Assembly (NCBI RefSeq): GCF_003991905.1
Contig: NZ_RSCL01000008.1
Location: forward strand, 62,001-126,000
DNA from: Dulcicalothrix desertica PCC 7102
GTDB lineage: Bacteria; Cyanobacteriota; Cyanobacteriia; Cyanobacteriales; Nostocaceae
Length of the DNA stretch: 64,000 nt
Direction of reading: 5' to 3'
The notes under the pieces were generated by a model. The model was not told the DNA's origin. It searched no databases and saw nothing but the letters and a program-made list of their open reading frames with translations. Below are positions 53,722 to 62,912 of the stretch, piece by piece (position 1 is the first letter of the stretch; each line of letters starts with the position of its first letter). The position numbers were made by a program, and so were the translations under genes.

Positions 53722-53866
53722 AAAGCTAATGAATATTAAGAATTGATAAGTAATCACTATTATATAGATAATATACGTATATTTTCTTTATAATTTATTT
53801 AGATTTGTTTCAAAATAGTGCAATCTATAAAAAATTTTGGGAGATAGATGTCTCCTTGTTACTGGT

Positions 53867-55510
53867 ATGACAGATAATAGGACGCTTCTAATCGTTGACG
53901 ATTGTACGGAAGACCGAAAAGTATATCGCCGATACCTTTTAAAAGACCCCCACTTTAACTATGAGATTGTGGAGGCAGATTCTGCGGAAACTGGTTTGAC
54001 GCTATGGCAGCAGATGCAGTTCGATGTTGTTCTGCTTGATTTCTGTTTGCCAGAAATGAGCGGATTTGAGTTTTTTCAACTTCTTGCCTCTCAAACAGTT
54101 AATAATAGGCCTTGCGTAATTATGCTGACTGGTCATGGGGACGAAGTGTTAGCAGTGCAGGCAATGAAGCTTGGCGTACAAGATTATTTAGTCAAAAACA
54201 ATTTAAAATCGGATGTATTGCAGTTAGCGGTTAGAAATGCAATTAAGCAATCGCACCTGCAAGCACAGTTAAATAAAACTCTTGAACGGCAGCGCTTGAT
54301 AGCAACAACAGCGCTAAGAATTCGTAAATCACTTGACTTAAAACAAATTTTGTCTACGGCAGTTGCAGAGGTACAGCAGTTACTTCGCTGTAGTGTAGCA
54401 GTATATCAGTTCGCCCCAGATTTCTCAGTAGATAATATTACGAATTTGATTGCAGCATCTAGGGAATCTACAATATCCCACGCTGAATTATTTGGCAGTT
54501 GTTACCAAGTTGATACCCAAAATAACCATCATCATTGGCAATGTCGGGGTGCAATTAGCAATATTTATGCTGCAGGGATGAAACATCCATATGATTTAGT
54601 ACAAAAAAACGGTAAAACACAAGCGAATTTAGTAATCCCCATAAATTTAAGTCACGATAGTAAGCTATGGGGTTTGTTAGTTGCTCATCACCATGAAGAA
54701 GAAAGACTTTGGCAACCGGATGAGGTGGAAATTCTCAGCGAAGTTTCGGTGCAGTTAGCAATTGCAATTCAACAAGCTGAATTACTAGCTCAAACTCAGG
54801 CATCACTTATAAAAGAAAAGCAGTTGAATAACTTTAAATCACAGTTTATTACTACAGTTTCTCATGAATATCGAACGCCTTTAGCTTCAGTTTTGGCAGC
54901 TGCTTCGACACTTCATAAACATGGTGACAAGTTAGATATATTAAAGCAACAGCGTTTTTTGGAAATGATTGAGCAGAAAGCTCGACATTTGTCAAAACTC
55001 GTTGATGACATGCTGCTAGTTAACCAAATTGAACTCGATAAAACCAAGTTTAAACCGGCGCCGCTCGACTTGATGCATTTTTTTTCCGATTTGATGGAAC
55101 AGCAGCGTTTAGTGGTAACTGATGCTCACGAGTTAATTTTTAAAGTTACTGGTAATGCTCATTTGTTTTGGGGAGACAAAGGACTATTAAGACAAATATT
55201 TACAAATTTAGTATCAAATGCGATTAAATATTCTCCCGATGGGGGAAATATTGAGTTTCATTTGATAGATAAAGAAACCGAAATAATATTTCATGTTAAA
55301 GATGAAGGTATTGGCATTCCTCCTAGAGAGCTAGATAACTTGTTCCAATCGTTTAGCCGTGCTAGTAACGTCGATACAATTCCAGGTACAGGTATAGGAT
55401 TATTTATTGCTAAAGCTTGTGTTGAATTGCATGAGGGCAGTATTACCCTTGACAGTCATGTCGAACAAGGTACTGTGGTTACTGTTTGTCTGCCGAAACG
55501 TCGAAATTAA
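53867..55510 (+). CDS. Histidine kinase REC-GAF-HisKA-HATPase
   Basis: 547 residues from the ATG at 53867 (MTDNRTLLIVDDCTED); a TTG ten codons upstream is less likely. Receiver about 1-115 with Asp58 in VVLLDFCLPEMSG; GAF about 140-300 (SVAVYQFAPDFSVDN, LIPIN-like core, SKLWGLLVAHHHEEERLW), close to phytochrome-type GAF domains but without a bilin Cys next to the His; HisKA with His333 in TTVSHEYRTPLASVLAA; ATPase domain with LVSNAIKYSPDGG and GTGIGLFIAKACVELHEG. It repeats the gene order of the first phytochrome locus, where a kinase starting with a receiver also follows Rcp. It ends two bases before a 28-base palindrome that may serve as terminator. Confidence 0.9.
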   Translation: MTDNRTLLIVDDCTEDRKVYRRYLLKDPHFNYEIVEADSAETGLTLWQQMQFDVVLLDFCLPEMSGFEFFQLLASQTVNNRPCVIMLTGHGDEVLAVQAMKLGVQDYLVKNNLKSDVLQLAVRNAIKQSHLQAQLNKTLERQRLIATTALRIRKSLDLKQILSTAVAEVQQLLRCSVAVYQFAPDFSVDNITNLIAASRESTISHAELFGSCYQVDTQNNHHHWQCRGAISNIYAAGMKHPYDLVQKNGKTQANLVIPINLSHDSKLWGLLVAHHHEEERLWQPDEVEILSEVSVQLAIAIQQAELLAQTQASLIKEKQLNNFKSQFITTVSHEYRTPLASVLAAASTLHKHGDKLDILKQQRFLEMIEQKARHLSKLVDDMLLVNQIELDKTKFKPAPLDLMHFFSDLMEQQRLVVTDAHELIFKVTGNAHLFWGDKGLLRQIFTNLVSNAIKYSPDGGNIEFHLIDKETEIIFHVKDEGIGIPPRELDNLFQSFSRASNVDTIPGTGIGLFIAKACVELHEGSITLDSHVEQGTVVTVCLPKRRN

Positions 55511-55512
55511 TA

Positions 55513-55540
55513 GTAGAGACGTTACATGTAACGTCTCTAC
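55513..55540. repeat. Perfect 28-base palindrome, copy 2
   Basis: Identical to 38955-38982 over all 28 bases (GTAGAGACGTTACA plus its complement). It starts two bases after the kinase stop codon and lies between convergent genes, so it can terminate transcripts from both sides. Confidence 0.85.
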
Positions 55541-55565
55541 AGCACATTACATTATATTATTTATA

Positions 55566-56330
55566 TTATTTTTGGATTTCTTCTCGCAGTTGCTCTAAAT
55601 CAACATAACTATCAGCGACATCAATTAAACTTTCGCTTGTCATAGAACTTAAACTTACTACTTCTACCTGTACACCTTGGTATGCAACAGCGTTGACTGC
55701 ATAAGCTAAATCACCATCACCACTTAACAAAATTAAGGTGTCGCAATATCTAGCTAATGTCAGCATATCTACTGTGATTTCTACGTCCATGTTGGCTTTT
55801 TTAGAGCCATCAGGAAGATACACTAATTCCTTTGTGAATACACGATACCCGTTCCGGCGCATCCATAATAAAAACCCTTGCTGCTTCTCGTTGCCATTAT
55901 CAACTGGGGTGTAAAAATAAGCACGTAAAAGTTGACGCTGTTTAACTAGACAACGCAGAAGCTTAGTATAGTCAATTTCTAAATTGAGGTGCATTGCCGC
56001 GTAAAACAGGTTTGCCCCATCTATAAATATTGCTACCTTTTCTTCACTTGCCGAACCGCTTGACCTTGACATACGACGCTCGCGTCTTAATACTGCTGGA
56101 AAATTCTCAGCATTATTCAGTCCAATAATTCCAGGCATAATCGAATCTTCCATAGCCGATGCTGCGCGAACTTTTGGGAAACCAACTTCATGCTTTATAT
56201 TACTTGTAATCTCTGCATGACTCTCAATTTTTGATTCAATCTCTGAATAAGGCGCCAAATGCTCATGCGCGGTTGACTCTACTTTTAATGGTAACTTTTT
56301 ATTATTCCGAGGTTGTGGAAGCAACTGCAT
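55566..56330 (-). CDS. LabA-like NYN-domain protein
   Basis: 254 residues. An N-terminal extension of about 95 residues of low conservation is followed by an NYN (PIN-like nuclease) domain. It contains VAIFIDGANLFYAAMHLN, RAYFYTPVDNGNEKQQGFLLW, KKANMDVEITVDMLTLARYC, LILLSGDGDLAYAVNAVAYQ and VEVVSLSSMTSESLIDVADSY. The conserved acidic residues (Asp in IDGAN, Asp in NMDVEI, the Asp pair in SGDGDLA) are present, so a metal-dependent ribonuclease activity is possible. LabA proteins of cyanobacteria act in circadian output in Synechococcus; others in this family are uncharacterised. The gene is alone; a palindrome lies beyond its stop. Confidence 0.88.
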   Translation of the reverse strand: MQLLPQPRNNKKLPLKVESTAHEHLAPYSEIESKIESHAEITSNIKHEVGFPKVRAASAMEDSIMPGIIGLNNAENFPAVLRRERRMSRSSGSASEEKVAIFIDGANLFYAAMHLNLEIDYTKLLRCLVKQRQLLRAYFYTPVDNGNEKQQGFLLWMRRNGYRVFTKELVYLPDGSKKANMDVEITVDMLTLARYCDTLILLSGDGDLAYAVNAVAYQGVQVEVVSLSSMTSESLIDVADSYVDLEQLREEIQK

Positions 56331-57316
56331 AATATTGATTGACGCTCCTAAGCGTATATTTTTTCACTATGAGCAAACGGCAATGGTGTAACTATAGCAG
56401 TTACAAGCAGCCTTCGCTCCAATTGACAAAGCAGGCGCCAAAACTACCTAGTCAATCGAACTTACGCTACAACATACACATTGATTAACATAACGTGATA
56501 ATTTTATATTTTCTTTATTTTTGACTATTTTTTCGCAAAATCACTGTAACTGTCGCAAAAAACACAAAAATTTTAATTCTTTTTTTACATAAAAATCTCT
56601 TCTTTTTCTTTACAACCATAATGAATCAAGTTACATGCTTGATAATATCATGTTACATGCATTTCTACCATATGAATGTCATAAAATAATATTTATTAAT
56701 AATTTTTTAATATAAACCCTTATATAAGGTATATACTACTCTTGCATAGTATAAATAGTTACTTTTGTTTTGTAGTTAGGTAAATTGTTTACGTTTATAT
56801 TGCTTGCAATATTAAAACTTATTCAAGATAGCATTTATTTTGGATATGGACATCTGCTAGATGATGATGTAATCCAAAAATATATATATGCGATTTAGCC
56901 TAGCAGTAGGCTGCTAGACTAAATTGTTGTTGATTAATGACAATCAACTTGAGTTGGCTATATTCCGGTTAGCCCTAAAAATCTAAATATTTTGGTGTGA
57001 ACTAATTTGTAGCGGTATTGATGCAGTTTCGTTAACTCAACTCGTGTTGTAGTGAAGTGCAATATATTTGCGAGTAATACGCACTTTGATATATTGTCGG
57101 TGCCATTCCAACATTATGTGTTCATAAGGTTAACAAATCACACACTGCTCAAAATATTGTATCGAGCTATTGCGTAAGTAACTTATGTGTTAATTATTTT
57201 ATTGTTTTAACGTAGCTAGTATTAACAGTGTTAATTTTAACATGCTACTATATTTTTAGCGTGCATCTAATGCTACAACACGATCTAAACCTTGTAAGTA
57301 TATAAGATGTTGTAAA
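56331..57316. other. 986-base intergenic region with a strong hairpin
   Basis: No gene is seen. At 56894-56923 TTTAGCCTAGCAG, a four-base loop and CTGCTAGACTAAA form a 13-bp stem, with a single C/A mismatch on plus-strand RNA that becomes a G-U pair on the minus strand. It lies about 400 bases beyond the 3' end of the patX-like gene. The remainder is very AT-rich, with scattered TATA-like runs (56680-56760); it may hold the promoter of the LabA-like gene and an undetected small RNA. Confidence 0.5.
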
Positions 57317-57535
57317 TTAGACAGAATGAAAGGTACTGACTAAGTACTCTGTAAAACTTCGGCGCCCACTACCACGATGAGGAAATGGTTGTGGTTGCTT
57401 GGGTCTCGCTTTTGATGAAGCTCTTGAAGCTATTGTGACTGGAGTAACAGACTCAGAGTGCAAGTTGTTTTGGCACTCTAACGATAGAGACCCGAAGAAA
57501 AATGTTGTGACCAAAAGTGAGATGACAGTACGCAT
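57317..57535 (-). CDS. patX: PatX-like exported protein with HRGSGR motif (heterocyst inhibitor family)
   Basis: 72 residues. The N-terminus is a signal peptide (MRTVISLLVTTFFFGSLSLE). A short linker follows (SVTPVTIASRASSKARP), then the Pro/Gln-rich KQPQPFPHRGSGRRSFTEYL, with HRGSGR at residues 53-58 (bases 57362-57379). RGSGR is the pentapeptide of PatS that binds the differentiation master regulator HetR. The PatX family, described in filamentous cyanobacteria, combines a secretion signal with HRGSGR near the C-terminus, exactly as here. The product is expected to be exported or processed and to restrain heterocyst formation in neighbouring cells. The gene stands alone between long gaps, with TCCGGA 57 bases upstream. 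The ribosome binding site is weak. An opposite-strand frame here is a shadow. Confidence 0.82.
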   Translation of the reverse strand: MRTVISLLVTTFFFGSLSLECQNNLHSESVTPVTIASRASSKARPKQPQPFPHRGSGRRSFTEYLVSTFHSV

Positions 57536-57591
57536 AGCAGATGTTTATTTTAGAACTCTCCATCCACTAGTACTTAGTTTTATTTAGTGCA

Positions 57592-57597
57592 TCCGGA
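57592..57597 (-). promoter_or_regulatory. TCCGGA element upstream of the patX-like gene (candidate DIF-type -35)
   Basis: The only TCCGGA I noticed near a gene start in this window. It stands 57 bases before the patX-like start codon, a distance at which it could be the -35 element. TCCGGA is, as I recall, the DIF motif of promoters induced early in heterocyst differentiation, and it has been reported before patX genes. No convincing -10 sequence is visible, so this is a candidate only. Confidence 0.45.
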
Positions 57598-57640
57598 TGA
57601 TTCAAAAAAAGTATTGTTTTTTACTCCGACAAAAAAGTTG

Positions 57641-59443
57641 TTATTTTTCTATATGTTCTACTAGTAACCAGTTACCTGCTGAGTTATAACGACCCTGAAG
57701 CTGAAGTTGCTCACCGTTTACAAGCTTTTCAAGTGTCGAATCAATATGTGGATGTAAAGTTACCAGCTGCCAAGTTTGTCCTTCGTATTCAGATGGGGTT
57801 AAAACGGTAAATGCGTAATCTTGCTGACCATAAAAATGAAAAGTTCCAACACATGAAATATTTATACGTGAGTTTACTGAATTTTTATGTAAGTCTAAAT
57901 ACTGGGATATATTAAGATTGGGACAAATACCAGTGGTTGGATAAGCTGTATGATTGACTGTATAATATTTTTGCCATTTTAACCATTCAGAATGTTCAAG
58001 GGTTAAGTTAAAAAATGGCACAATTAAAGCAGGTAAATGTGAATTTTCGATTAAGGCATCTTGCAATTTTTCTACGTGTAAATGCTGTGGCAATTGATTA
58101 TATTCAATACATAATGCTGCTGCCATACCTACAGCTTGACCAATATTCATAACAACAGGTTGGAGCCGAGTGGCGCCCGAAGCAATATGAGATACTGATA
58201 TATTTTTTTCACAGGCAAAAAAACCATCGATGTATTCACTTACCAAACAACGATAAGGAATAGTGAAGGGTGTCCCTGTCCAACGTCCACCCCAGCGAAT
58301 CGATTTAGGTTGTAAAGCAAACTCTATACCAGGATAATGATGGTCATTAGCGTAGTTACCTATGGCAATTGCATCTTTATGTAACGGTGCTGCATTACCA
58401 CCATTCCCCGGTAATATATCTTGTTCACGCACCGTCGTTATACCAATTAAACGGCGACTCTCGCGATAGTAAGGATGTAATGCGAAACTTGTAAGTGCTG
58501 AGTGCTGAGTGCTGAGTGCTGAGTGCTGAGTGTTGAGTTGGGGAAAAATATTTGGCGCTAATCCGTAACGGCGCCCTAGTTGTGATTGAATAAAATGGGC
58601 AAAATTTTGACTATGCCAAAAACATTCCTGTAAAAATTCTTGTCGTTTTGCTTCTGATTCAATTAATCTGCCTGCTCCTACACCCCAATCATTACCTTGC
58701 TGGGGCCAATTAATCATAAATCGATTTCCTGGCAGGCGCCCATAATTCATAAATTTCTCGGCACCATAATTATCCCAGGCACCAATAAATAACGATTCAT
58801 CATAATTGGGTGCTTGTGGTATTTCTGGAGCAGAATCACCAAAATCTTGCATGACTACTACCCAAGTAGGCGCCTGTACAGGATATTTTTTAGTGAGAGA
58901 ATTATATTCAGTAGGGGCACTTATCTCACCAAACTCTGATTGAAGTTCCCAACCCCAACGATGTGGTATTTCTCCTAAAGCTAATAAATCACCAAGTTCA
59001 GTACCATCGATGGTTATTTTGGCATGAACAGTAAATGAAGCAAATTTCACACCTGTAACGCAGTTACCTTGACGCAGTACCTCTAAAGGTACATATCCAG
59101 AAATCCATTGTAAATTTGGTAATGCATTCACCCAGTCAGCAAATATCTGGGCGCCAATGCGTGGTTCATAACTAAAAAAGCTAACCCAACTATTGTCTAA
59201 TCCTCCAGGTTGCCGAGAGCGCAACTCAATTAAAAACTCACCCCATAAACCCGTTTGAAATGCTGCAAGCTCGTTACCATCAGGCGCCGTAACTCCTGCA
59301 CTAGTTAGCATACCCCCCAGCCAAGCAAATTCACTTACTAATATTACTTTGGCGCCTCGTCTCGCTGCTTGAATAGCTGCTGCAGTTCCCCCTGTTCCAC
59401 CACCAACGACTAATACATCTGTTGTATATATTTGATTACTCAT
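57641..59443 (-). CDS. FAD-dependent oxidoreductase (FAD_oxidored family)
   Basis: 600 residues. The dinucleotide motif VLVVGGGTGGTAAAIQAARRGAKV is at the N-terminus, followed by EFAWLGGMLTSAGVTAPDGNE, TIDGTELGDLLALGEIP, and ITTVREQDILPGNGGNAAPL; the later part has ISVSHIASGATRLQPVVMNIGQAVGMAAALC. This is the pattern of large flavoproteins of the FAD_oxidored family, often hydroxylase or dehydrogenase-like; the substrate is unknown. No signal peptide. Residues about 310-326 (LNTQHSALSTQHSALTS) come from six heptamer repeats inserted in frame. They lie between the conserved parts and probably form a loop. The C-terminal 120 residues contain a separate beta-rich segment. Confidence 0.87.
   Translation of the reverse strand: MSNQIYTTDVLVVGGGTGGTAAAIQAARRGAKVILVSEFAWLGGMLTSAGVTAPDGNELAAFQTGLWGEFLIELRSRQPGGLDNSWVSFFSYEPRIGAQIFADWVNALPNLQWISGYVPLEVLRQGNCVTGVKFASFTVHAKITIDGTELGDLLALGEIPHRWGWELQSEFGEISAPTEYNSLTKKYPVQAPTWVVVMQDFGDSAPEIPQAPNYDESLFIGAWDNYGAEKFMNYGRLPGNRFMINWPQQGNDWGVGAGRLIESEAKRQEFLQECFWHSQNFAHFIQSQLGRRYGLAPNIFPQLNTQHSALSTQHSALTSFALHPYYRESRRLIGITTVREQDILPGNGGNAAPLHKDAIAIGNYANDHHYPGIEFALQPKSIRWGGRWTGTPFTIPYRCLVSEYIDGFFACEKNISVSHIASGATRLQPVVMNIGQAVGMAAALCIEYNQLPQHLHVEKLQDALIENSHLPALIVPFFNLTLEHSEWLKWQKYYTVNHTAYPTTGICPNLNISQYLDLHKNSVNSRINISCVGTFHFYGQQDYAFTVLTPSEYEGQTWQLVTLHPHIDSTLEKLVNGEQLQLQGRYNSAGNWLLVEHIEK
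58494..58535 (-). repeat. Six heptamer repeats inside the FAD oxidoreductase gene
   Basis: AGTGCTG five times and AGTGTTG once, in exact tandem. Read on the minus strand the unit is CAGCACT, the same as in recF, and it encodes the same STQHSAL cycle. Confidence 0.9.
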
Positions 59444-59586
59444 TTTGACTCATACCTAAAATAATTGAGTCTTATTCTGGCACACAGGCAACGTTAAATT
59501 CGTCTTTGTAAATGTCATAACATCGGCATTTTGTAAAAGTGCTGATATAAAGATTACAGACAAGTTCTTATTAGAGGAGATGAACG

Positions 59587-59973
59587 GTGAAAACAGCACT
59601 TATTAAAACACTTATAGCATCGGTTGGTTTTGTGACTTTATTCTCGCCCTTGCGCGCGTCGGCACAACTTATACCTCAACCTTGGGTTTCTGTTGGTAGT
59701 AATGAAGGTGATGTTACTTACTCGGTTGGCGCCCGTGCTTTAGACTTAGGCGCCGAACTCGGTTTTGGACCCGATGGTTCTACTGGTGTGGATGTTTTGA
59801 AGTTCTTATCTTTGCCATTTGTATCACCTTATGTTGGGTTAGGATACTATTCTGAAGATAAAGGTGTTGCATTTTCTGGTGGAGTTCAAGTTCGCGCAAG
59901 TGATAATTTTTTTGTAGGAGGCGGTTACAATTCTGTGCGTGGCTTTAACGGACAGTTAGGAATTAGCTTCTAA
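59587..59973 (+). CDS. Small exported protein, probably a small beta-barrel
   Basis: 128 residues from a GTG at 59587, preceded by GAGGAG about 12 bases upstream. Signal peptide MKTALIKTLIASVGFVTLFS with a cleavage site at ASA|QLI (about residue 26). The mature part is Gly-rich with alternating hydrophobic residues (VTYSVGARALDLGAELGFG, YVGLGYYSEDKGVAFSGG, FFVGGGYNSVRGFNGQLG) and ends in Phe. This suggests a short outer-membrane barrel or periplasmic beta-sandwich. No homologue name comes to mind. A palindromic hairpin lies 46 bases after its stop. Confidence 0.75.
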   Translation: MKTALIKTLIASVGFVTLFSPLRASAQLIPQPWVSVGSNEGDVTYSVGARALDLGAELGFGPDGSTGVDVLKFLSLPFVSPYVGLGYYSEDKGVAFSGGVQVRASDNFFVGGGYNSVRGFNGQLGISF

Positions 59974-60557
59974 TTTGATATAATAATAATCCCCCTAAAA
60001 GTAATTAAAACTATTTTCAGGTTCGCCAATTGGCGAACTTGAATTGTCAGCTTTCGGTGAATAAGTATTTAAAGTTGTAAAAATTACATACAATACGTGA
60101 TTGTAAGGGCATTTAAAATCTTTGAAAGTTATCTTTACAGTAAATTTACATAAAGAAATGGTAGAAATGATGTGAATTGAAATAAGTAACGTAGATATAA
60201 TGTTTTTGGAGTATCTCTAGCATCTTATAAAATTAAGTGGGTATCTATTCAGCAAGCTACTTGTCTTTATAGGCAATAGTGGGTAAAGTTTGTATGGTCA
60301 ATACGACCAATTCAAAAATACTTTAGTTTGTAATGGGTTAAAATATATGTAGTGAGTGGACTGTAGAGATTTTGGTATAAATCTTGTAGGTAGGGAAATA
60401 ATCCCGTATTGGGCGCCCTGCAAATATAAGTGAAGTTCCAATAAAGTTTATATAACTGGTGTTATTCCAGATTTACAGCAGCAATGAGTGAAGAAAAAGT
60501 AAAAGCTAGAACACGAAAAATCACTATTAGTTTAAGAAACTAAAATGGAAACTCCTT
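59974..60557. other. Intergenic region with a palindrome
   Basis: A 22-base, nearly perfect palindrome (centre GTTCGCCAATTGGCGAAC, 60021-60038) follows the small exported gene and may end its transcript; there is no T run. The rest is AT-rich. At 60484-60543 an ATG-led frame of 19 codons (MSEEKVKARTRKITISLRN) ends 14 bases before the WD40 gene and could be a leader peptide, but is too short to be sure. Confidence 0.45.
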
Positions 60558-62912
60558 ATGGAGCAAGGATTAAGAGTATTAATTCAGTTGGTGCTTGAAT
60601 TTGCACCCGTAGTAGCAAATTTGGTACAAAAAAGGAACGAAGCAAGTTCAATGCTTGCGAAACTTCAACCACCGAATGAAGTTAAAGAGTTTCTTGAAGT
60701 TATAAATAATTCGGTTGTAGAGAGTAATACATCGGAATTAGCACAAGTTGAGTATCAACGGGAAAAGACAATTCAGCAGCAACTAGCTGTACATAACCGT
60801 CAAACTCAGTTGTATATAGCAAAGTACGAACGAGAAACTACACTAAAGTTACCTGAAGTCAATCGTATACTAGATAGTTGGCCTCTGCGGTTATATCCAT
60901 CGCAAATTTTGGAGTCTCATAAAGATAATACAGTTAGGACTCCGCTAAAAATATTTGTGGCGCCACCCAAAATTCTATTTGATAAGTTTGATACTCGTGA
61001 AGGAGATATTTCTGAGATTGAACCGATGTTAGCAGAGGGTTTGCGTGATTTTCTGAATTGCTATTACTCGCTGCATAACCCAGTTCGTCCAACTGAATTT
61101 TTAGCAGGTGCCTGGTATAGTAAAAGGTTTCATAGCGAATCGAGCATTAAAGCTTTGTTTGGAATGTTGAAATCGGAGCCGATACTTATATTAGAATCGG
61201 AAACTGACGGAGATTATATTAATTTTCGTATTGGCTATTGGGGTTTAGGTCAAGACAACTATTATTACAAAACTATTTCAAGAATATCTTACAGAGATAT
61301 TGTTTATCAGTCGGCAAAAAACCGCGCCCTACAGTGGAGGCAAATCCGCGATGAATTAATACTTCTGGGGGAAGACATAGACGAAATAAATCAAATGGGA
61401 GGAGATAACGTCTATAATTTAGACCTTTTAGAGCGCGAAAAAAAATGGAAAGACAAGGGAGTTGATACTAGTAAAATTGAACTAAAGTATCGAGTTAATC
61501 GCCAAGATTTTGAAAAGTTGTGTCAGGTATTAACTAATTGTCACTGTTTGGTTGCTAGCTGGATATCTGATGTATATCACTTAATTCATCACGATGTTTC
61601 GCCCCTATTACCCGAATTATTACCTTCTTTAGTAGAAGATGGTATTGATTTTCAATCAGTAGGCGCCATTGCCGAAGGATACAAACAAGTTTATCAGGCA
61701 TTGGAAAATGAACGAGGGCATTGGGTTCCCGAATTAGCATTACAATTGGCGAATAGTTTATCGGGCTTAAATGACCCAACTTGGGCAAGCGAACAAGTAA
61801 GTTATTCACTCGAAGCTTGGTTACAACTCCATCAAATTTCCCCGAAAGAGACTAGTAATCCGCTAACCGCAATGTTAAACGCAGTACGAATTGAAGATGA
61901 AAAATATATTAGTAATCTCAAAATTTATTTTACTGCGATTGGAGATTTGCCCAATCTTAACTTAGTGGAGGAAATGCTTTCGGCAATTAATGACTTAAAA
62001 AAGCTGCGTTCCTCTGAATATGCATACGTCGTCAATACTCTTACTGGACACGCTGAAAAAGTTACATCCGTCGTTGTTAGTCCTGATGGTGAAACAATTG
62101 TGAGTGGATGTGCTGACAAAACGGTGAAAGTGTGGAACCTTCACACCGGCAAAGTCATCCGTACTATTTCAGGACATTCAGGGGAAATATCTTCAGTCGC
62201 TGTAAGTCCAGATGGCGCCTTTTTAGCAGTAGGGATTAGTGATACACCTCGTAGTAATGTTAAAGTTTGGCACCTTCAAACAGGCAAATTAATTCATACA
62301 CTGCTTGGACACAACAAACCCGTTAACGTCGTAAGCATTAGTCCCGACGGTCAAATACTTGCTAGTGGCAGTAATAAAATCAAAATTTGGAACTTGCAAA
62401 AAGGAGATAGAGTTTGCACGCTTTGGCATTCATCCGCAGTTAACGCGACTGCTATTACTTCCGATGGCACAATTTTAGTTAGTGGTACCAGCGACAACAA
62501 AATAAAACTTTGGAATCCTCAAACAGGTGAACCACTGCGTACCTTTATGGGACATTCGGGAGAAGTTAAAGCTTTAGCACTGCATCCAAACGGACAAATC
62601 TTAGTTAGCGGTAGTACAGACTGCACCATTAAAGTATGGGATTTAAACTCTGGTAAGATATTACACAATTTAATCGAACATACTAGCGAAGTAAGAAGTC
62701 TTGCTATTAGCCGCGATGGCAAATTAATTATAAGTGGAAGCAGTGATAAAACTATTAAAATTTGGCACTTACCATCGGGTGAACTACTGCAAACTCTTAC
62801 CGGACATTTGGGCGCCGTTAACTCTATCGCAATTACTCCTGATGACCGCTTTATAGTTAGTGGCTGTTCAGACAAAACCATCAAAATTTGGCAATTAACC
62901 GAAGATTCTTAA
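60558..62912 (+). CDS. WD40-repeat protein with unrecognised N-terminal half
   Basis: 784 residues. The first 490 have no domain I can name. A helical start (QGLRVLIQLVLEFAPVVANLV) is followed by a coiled coil (about 60-95). A mixed domain comes next (PLKIFVAPPKILFDKFDT, AEGLRDFLNCYYSLHNPVRP, WYSKRFHSESSIKALFGML, IGYWGLGQDNYYYKTISRIS), then a helical part (CHCLVASWISDVYHLIHHD). From about 497 seven WD40 repeats follow, most with GH...VWNL/IWHL ends (LTGHAEKVTSV to KIWQL), enough to close one propeller. The propeller should be a protein-docking platform; the N-terminal part may be the effector. In cyanobacteria such fusions often belong to signalling or conflict systems, but that is inference. 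Confidence 0.85.
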   Translation: MEQGLRVLIQLVLEFAPVVANLVQKRNEASSMLAKLQPPNEVKEFLEVINNSVVESNTSELAQVEYQREKTIQQQLAVHNRQTQLYIAKYERETTLKLPEVNRILDSWPLRLYPSQILESHKDNTVRTPLKIFVAPPKILFDKFDTREGDISEIEPMLAEGLRDFLNCYYSLHNPVRPTEFLAGAWYSKRFHSESSIKALFGMLKSEPILILESETDGDYINFRIGYWGLGQDNYYYKTISRISYRDIVYQSAKNRALQWRQIRDELILLGEDIDEINQMGGDNVYNLDLLEREKKWKDKGVDTSKIELKYRVNRQDFEKLCQVLTNCHCLVASWISDVYHLIHHDVSPLLPELLPSLVEDGIDFQSVGAIAEGYKQVYQALENERGHWVPELALQLANSLSGLNDPTWASEQVSYSLEAWLQLHQISPKETSNPLTAMLNAVRIEDEKYISNLKIYFTAIGDLPNLNLVEEMLSAINDLKKLRSSEYAYVVNTLTGHAEKVTSVVVSPDGETIVSGCADKTVKVWNLHTGKVIRTISGHSGEISSVAVSPDGAFLAVGISDTPRSNVKVWHLQTGKLIHTLLGHNKPVNVVSISPDGQILASGSNKIKIWNLQKGDRVCTLWHSSAVNATAITSDGTILVSGTSDNKIKLWNPQTGEPLRTFMGHSGEVKALALHPNGQILVSGSTDCTIKVWDLNSGKILHNLIEHTSEVRSLAISRDGKLIISGSSDKTIKIWHLPSGELLQTLTGHLGAVNSIAITPDDRFIVSGCSDKTIKIWQLTEDS

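Follow-up and report, generated by a model that had tools for sequence, protein, structure and literature searches.

Introduction

PatX of Anabaena/Nostoc PCC 7120 and the proteins collected in NCBIfam family NF047413 are small, with a hydrophobic N-terminus, an RG(S/T)GR motif close to the C-terminus and a DIF1 promoter (PMC7761841, PMC7377430, PMC12756182). The same description holds for the frame reported here, which lies in a 64 kb stretch of DNA from Dulcicalothrix desertica PCC 7102; this whole stretch is called the window in the following. PatX is described as accompanying HetR, and loss of patX alone caused no discernible change in PCC 7120 without fixed nitrogen (PMC7761841). PatS shares RGSGR and the DIF1 promoter with the window protein and acts on HetR (PMC7761841, PMC7377430), but its pentapeptide forms the C-terminus (PMC7761841), whereas 14 residues follow it in the window protein. 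The PatS precursor is probably cut in the cytoplasm (PMC12756182), in contrast to the window protein with its presumed export signal. An internal RGSGR is also found in HetN, where it inhibits HetR; expression of HetN comes later and persists in mature heterocysts (PMC7761841).

Assignments of the window frame to PatS and to HetN were both rejected, the former on account of the 14 residues after RGSGR, the latter because the frame encodes just 72 aa without a Pfam match up to E 0.1. HetN is a larger protein of the dehydrogenase type with an internal RGSGR. PatX was reportedly defined by Elhai and Khudyakov in 2018. A mark of the family is a DIF1 motif TCCGGA within 69 bases upstream. The frame described here is very probably the patX gene of a cyanobacterium of the Calothrix clade and would encode an inhibitor acting on HetR.

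Comparison set

A total of 151 loci was reduced to 136 by dropping 15 repeat fetches of the same place. Two of these, L147 and L151, are second matches in their genomes and yielded no frame under the extraction rule, which left 134 patX copies, including two below the NF047413 cut-off (L149 and L150). The set does not include the second match of G086, either partial match of G129, or three matches that scored below the cut-off. For position-wise counts L146 and L150 were also dropped (132 loci). A further 40 loci outside the family were picked by hand among the matches listed for the order (388 genomes).

The patX frame and its family

A sequence-only reading of this DNA had pointed to a 72-codon frame with an exported N-terminus and HRGSGR at residues 53-58, and had taken it for a patX-like heterocyst inhibitor. 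The frame is borne out by the ORF list of the window (ATG start, 72 aa plus stop), as are the motif and a hydrophobic N-terminus. The coordinates of all features are given in Table 1. Protein comparison places the product at 51.6-52.7 bits against the NCBIfam equivalog NF047413 (heterocyst_PatX), above the curated cut-off of 30. The match spans residues 1-60 and includes the hydrophobic N-terminal stretch, as judged by inspection. The family score of 52.7 bits, the position of the DIF1 motif and the presence of HetR in the genome together support the proposed identity, and by analogy with the studied homologues they would also fit the proposed role in heterocyst inhibition.

Table 1. Features of the patX locus in the window (coordinates of the 64 kb stretch).
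Feature	Position	Strand	Basis
patX coding sequence	57317..57535	-	ORF; NCBIfam NF047413 match; dN/dS
Hydrophobic N-terminus, residues 1-20, presumed Sec signal	57476..57535	-	sequence inspection; signal of the PCC 7120 homologue exports in E. coli
HRGSGR, HetR-binding hexapeptide, residues 53-58	57362..57379	-	motif search; 134 homologues
C-terminal tail of 14 residues, residues 59-72	57320..57361	-	comparison of 134 homologues
Conserved leader, -30 to -1	57536..57565	-	pairwise identity, 132 loci
DIF1 motif TCCGGA, beginning at -63, presumed -35 element	57592..57597	-	position in homologues
NtcA-type site, perfect GTAN8TAC	57611..57624	-	consensus match
FAD-dependent oxidoreductase gene, directly upstream of patX	57641..59443	-	Pfam FAD_oxidored, E 3.1e-96

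The start codon of patX is well fixed, since an in-frame stop lies 12 bases 5' of the ATG in the window and 115 of 132 homologues likewise have their nearest upstream in-frame stop at -12. The family search found a single copy of patX in the window genome. PatX proteins above the cut-off were present in 133 of 140 genomes drawn from its GTDB family and in 168 of 388 genomes drawn from the order (family included); NF047413 gave zero matches among 14 control genomes. The gene is an ordinary, already known member of a curated and experimentally studied family. That it acts as an inhibitor in D. desertica is suggested by the work on Anabaena/Nostoc PCC 7120.

The frame is under purifying selection. 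Among the five close genomes L001-L005, the ten patX pairs show between one and nine synonymous changes and between two and four others, and dN/dS is 0.06-0.21 in nine of them; the tenth (L004-L005, dN/dS 0.66) rests on just one synonymous and two other changes. The 63 bases 5' of the ATG show zero differences in all ten pairs, while synonymous divergence among the five genomes reaches 0.19. Conservation in relatives had been named as a check on the identification, and both frame and HRGSGR are kept in six other genomes of the same genus (L002-L006 and L008). The PatX proteins of Calothrix sp. PCC 7716, PCC 7103, HK-06 and FI2-JRJ7 are 99%, 97%, 94% and 94% identical to the window protein, those of the remaining named Calothrix records, NIES-4105 and C42_A2020_038, 75% and 53%.

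Promoter and leader

TCCGGA is the DIF1 motif; its dependence on HetZ has been reported, and a place at -35 has been proposed for it in the patS and patX promoters (PMC7377430). The sequence-only reading had named it as a DIF element and placed it 57 bases before the start; the motif and its nature agree with that paper and with its conserved place in the family, whereas the distance was off by one, with 56 bases intervening between TCCGGA and ATG. By itself the hexamer occurs at chance frequency (6 found in the 64 kb window, 5.79 expected), and its evidential weight comes from its near-fixed position, -62 or -63 in 126 of 134 copies. Within 300 bases 5' of the gene it was found in 128 copies, at -63 in 103, at -62 in 23, and at -66 and -54 once each. 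The six copies without it all retain TCCGG with an altered last base.

The NtcA consensus is GTAN8TAC, and the match in the window starts 27 bases before TCCGGA. A perfect GTAN8TAC starting 26-30 bases before TCCGG is present in 89 of the 134 homologues; of the other 45, 43 have no such pair and two have it much further off. An NtcA-type site is said by Elhai and Khudyakov to precede DIF1 upstream of patX in heterocyst formers. One copy of the composite GTAN8TAC-N13-TCCGGA is present in the window and 100 shuffles produced none, a result that is not an independent test because the spacing was taken from the observed site. A sigma-70 consensus scan of 56300-57700 was uninformative, with 10 sites where shuffled sequences had 7.1 on average (sd 2.7).

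Mean pairwise identity of the leader between -30 and -1 is 0.73 across 132 loci, compared with 0.76 for the first 12 codons and 0.34 for the interval from -300 to -200. A 23-base core of the leader was found once in the window genome with 3 mismatches allowed. Inverted repeats in the leader are no longer than in shuffled sequences (mean arm 3.95 vs 3.83, one shuffle per sequence), so no hairpin is indicated for the family by this comparison. An upstream open reading frame, seen in the Calothrix clade as a 36-codon frame that starts with ATG at -28 and overlaps patX, was rejected as a gene: only 66 of 132 loci have an ATG, GTG or TTG at -28, the open length varies between 0 and 63 codons apart from 55 loci that share a length of 28, and the three codon phases carry nearly equal information (1.36, 1.42 and 1.28 bits). 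In our judgement the leader is more constrained than promoter and start codon alone would require. It could possibly bind a translation regulator, or be touched near the transcription start by RNA polymerase together with an activator.

Outside the family, the leaders of L190, L194, L204 and L212 carry inverted repeats TCCGT...ACGGA that start near -40. For 35 of the 40 loci outside the family, the mean arm of the leader repeat was 4.91 vs 3.29 in one shuffle each.

Neighbourhood

In 121 of the 134 family loci patX is preceded by an FAD-dependent oxidoreductase gene of the same orientation, with no match in the other 13; the median distance from the end of the oxidoreductase match to patX is 113 bases. 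The claim that a larger frame occupies the opposite strand was wrong: the antisense frame (57399-57587, plus strand) is smaller than patX, with 62 aa from a TTG and 68 codons from stop to stop. It was rejected as a gene, its best Pfam match having an E of 0.033 and falling below the cut-off of that Pfam family. The antisense open length is 68 codons in the five closest, near-identical genomes; elsewhere, read in the same frame, it is 37 (L006), 51 (L007), 39 (L009), 51 (L010) and 89 codons (L008).

Downstream of patX, a stretch of 986 bases (56331-57316) holds just two frames that reach 40 aa, both small and on the plus strand (49 and 41 aa), and a gene with an NYN domain lies beyond it. A search for known RNA families in 55000-60500 gave none up to E 1. 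Also near patX are a response-regulator/GAF/histidine-kinase hybrid identified by Pfam (53837-55510) and a 784-aa protein with weak matches to repeats of the beta-propeller type (60558-62912); no link between patX and either gene was seen.

Motif, tail and HetR

The HRGSGR of patX contains the sole RG[ST]GR in the six-frame translation of the window. HRGSGR is the commonest variant among the 134 homologues (88), followed by YRGSGR (31) and WRGSGR (4); HRGTGR, the form of PCC 7120 PatX, was found in 2, and other variants in nine. The remark that the residues after the motif form a longer tail than in PatS is true, but a tail of exactly 14 residues is the commonest in PatX (79 of 134; the rest range from 2 to 48). 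The tail of the window protein is therefore typical, and the contrast drawn with PatS is one between two families. Across the 134 copies the tail opens with R in 92 and with K in 17, 109 together; the other 25 tails start with I, D, M, G, S, F or, once, a different residue. Conservation within the 79 tails of 14 residues peaks at the two ends, with 3.3 bits at the first place and 3.2 bits at the last, where V stands in 63; E occupies place 5 in 55. Nine loci (L072, L077, L084, L093, L107, L108, L112, L113 and L144) have an extra stretch between RGSGR and the usual tail. In most of them a degenerate second motif (e.g. GGSRR) stands ahead of that tail, which has the look of a duplicated end.

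The genome contains one HetR of 299 aa (NF009718, 615.7 bits, cut-off 489), which aligns end to end with the crystallised HetR chains. The peptide-binding residues R223, E253, E254, D256, D270 and D278 (PMC4649674) are all present in it, as read from the alignment. In the HetR-PatS6 structure, Arg223 lies near the free carboxyl terminus of the hexapeptide (PMC4649674), so that a tail after RGSGR would be expected to hinder binding and to require removal.

For PCC 7120, the signal of PatX has been found to work in E. coli, and in a reporter PatP cuts PatX 27 residues before the motif (PMC12756182). HRGTGR binds HetR at 88 nM, whereas PatX lacking its signal and otherwise uncut gave no two-hybrid interaction with HetR; two peptides flanking the motif were reported as well (PMC12756182). 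In the Results and Discussion of that study the cut is placed on the N side of the motif, and none was seen to be given within the native tail (PMC12756182). The tail of the window protein lies almost wholly outside the family model, as the NF047413 match ends at residue 60. Of the two flanking peptides in the processing study, one is reportedly part of the MBP fusion partner.

The window genome was searched for PatS with the pattern [DE]RGSGR-stop; the single match reads ERGRGS. A looser RGSGR-stop pattern gave 10 matches vs 20 in a backwards control. Two of them were considered as PatS and judged to be chance: L228 ends in RGTGR-stop, but its frame of 22 codons lacks a start codon and the locus has no TCCGGA upstream of it, and L226 is a 35-codon ATG frame with RGSGR followed by W, also without TCCGGA upstream. 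The other eight do not read RG[ST]GR when their codons are read by eye. No PatS-like frame was found in the window genome by these pattern searches.

Proposed function and alternative readings

Judged from its promoter anatomy and from published work, patX would be switched on in differentiating cells by nitrogen starvation through NtcA and by the HetR/HetZ circuit through the DIF1 promoter. The N-terminal signal probably exports the protein, as demonstrated for the Nostoc PCC 7120 homologue. PatX would then be cut to a peptide around HRGSGR, on the N side perhaps by PatP, as in the PCC 7120 reporter; removal of the tail, in contrast, is a step that we infer. The peptide may reach other cells, bind the HetR hood and free HetR from DNA, and cells whose HetR has been released in this way would not become heterocysts. 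For this organism export, processing, movement and inhibition are all predicted by analogy. Four observations weigh against the model: the lack of a discernible effect of patX loss in PCC 7120 without fixed nitrogen (PMC7761841), the transcriptional effects of patX in Leptolyngbya BL0902 that seem largely independent of HetR (PMC11298460), the missing two-hybrid contact between HetR and signal-less PatX (PMC12756182), and the 45 of 134 homologues that lack a perfect NtcA consensus at the usual spacing.

A chance frame with RGSGR near a chance TCCGGA is a negligible prospect. The chance-level frequency of TCCGGA in the window would suit it, yet it is refuted by the family match, the near-fixed motif position, the low dN/dS and the conserved upstream region. 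Decay of patX into a non-functional copy is almost as improbable: the NF047413 score is lower than that of most listed family members, which reach 105.9 bits, whereas the frame and the promoter elements are intact, selection is purifying and the copy is the single one found.

Members of the genus form terminal heterocysts. More weight is due to the idea, still an unlikely one, that the gene is a true PatX orthologue whose main job is not heterocyst spacing but restraint of HetR elsewhere, in hormogonia, necridia or vegetative growth, as proposed for non-heterocystous filaments. It draws on the co-occurrence of patX and hetR in filamentous cyanobacteria without heterocysts (PMC12756182), on effects of Leptolyngbya BL0902 patX on transcription that are described as basically independent of HetR (PMC11298460), and on a role of patX in PCC 7120 that is easier to see with fixed nitrogen (PMC7761841). 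Against this, the window copy retains an NtcA-type site together with DIF1, which fits nitrogen control, and a larger share of the inhibition may fall to PatX in a genome where the pattern searches gave no PatS-like frame. The reading as a heterocyst inhibitor is preferred.

Multi-copy precursors

It is suggested tentatively, and as possible rather than probable, that PatX is a prohormone: the active hexapeptide would be freed on both sides, the tail, which mostly starts with a basic residue after RGSGR and ends in valine, would be a tag removed before HetR binding, and the unit would have been multiplied to 2-6 RGSGR copies in some filamentous relatives. In genomes outside the family, PatX-like precursors contain three RGSGR copies in L175, L176 and L178, four in L177, five in L211 and two in L210. 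A search with the L211 repeat matched 4 of the 388 genomes of the order, with six copies in L216 and L217 and two in L218. K comes directly after every copy in L211, L216, L217 and L218, consistent with cleavage of the precursor on either side beside a basic residue.

Three observations speak against the prohormone reading. In L175-L178 the residue after the copies is F or L; neither R nor K follows the motif in 25 of the 134 family copies; and 17 of the 40 loci outside the family encode a protein that stops right after its last RGSGR-type motif, so that a tail is not universal there. The multi-copy proteins recall multi-copy precursors of peptide hormones. Among the titles and abstracts listed by a literature search none was seen on multi-copy precursors, and none of the papers searched contained both Calothrix and patX.

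Implications

The patX locus raises two questions. The conserved tail of 14 residues, the cut on the N side of the motif and the place of Arg223 at the peptide carboxyl together ask what removes the tail and whether its removal must occur. The conserved leader is the second.
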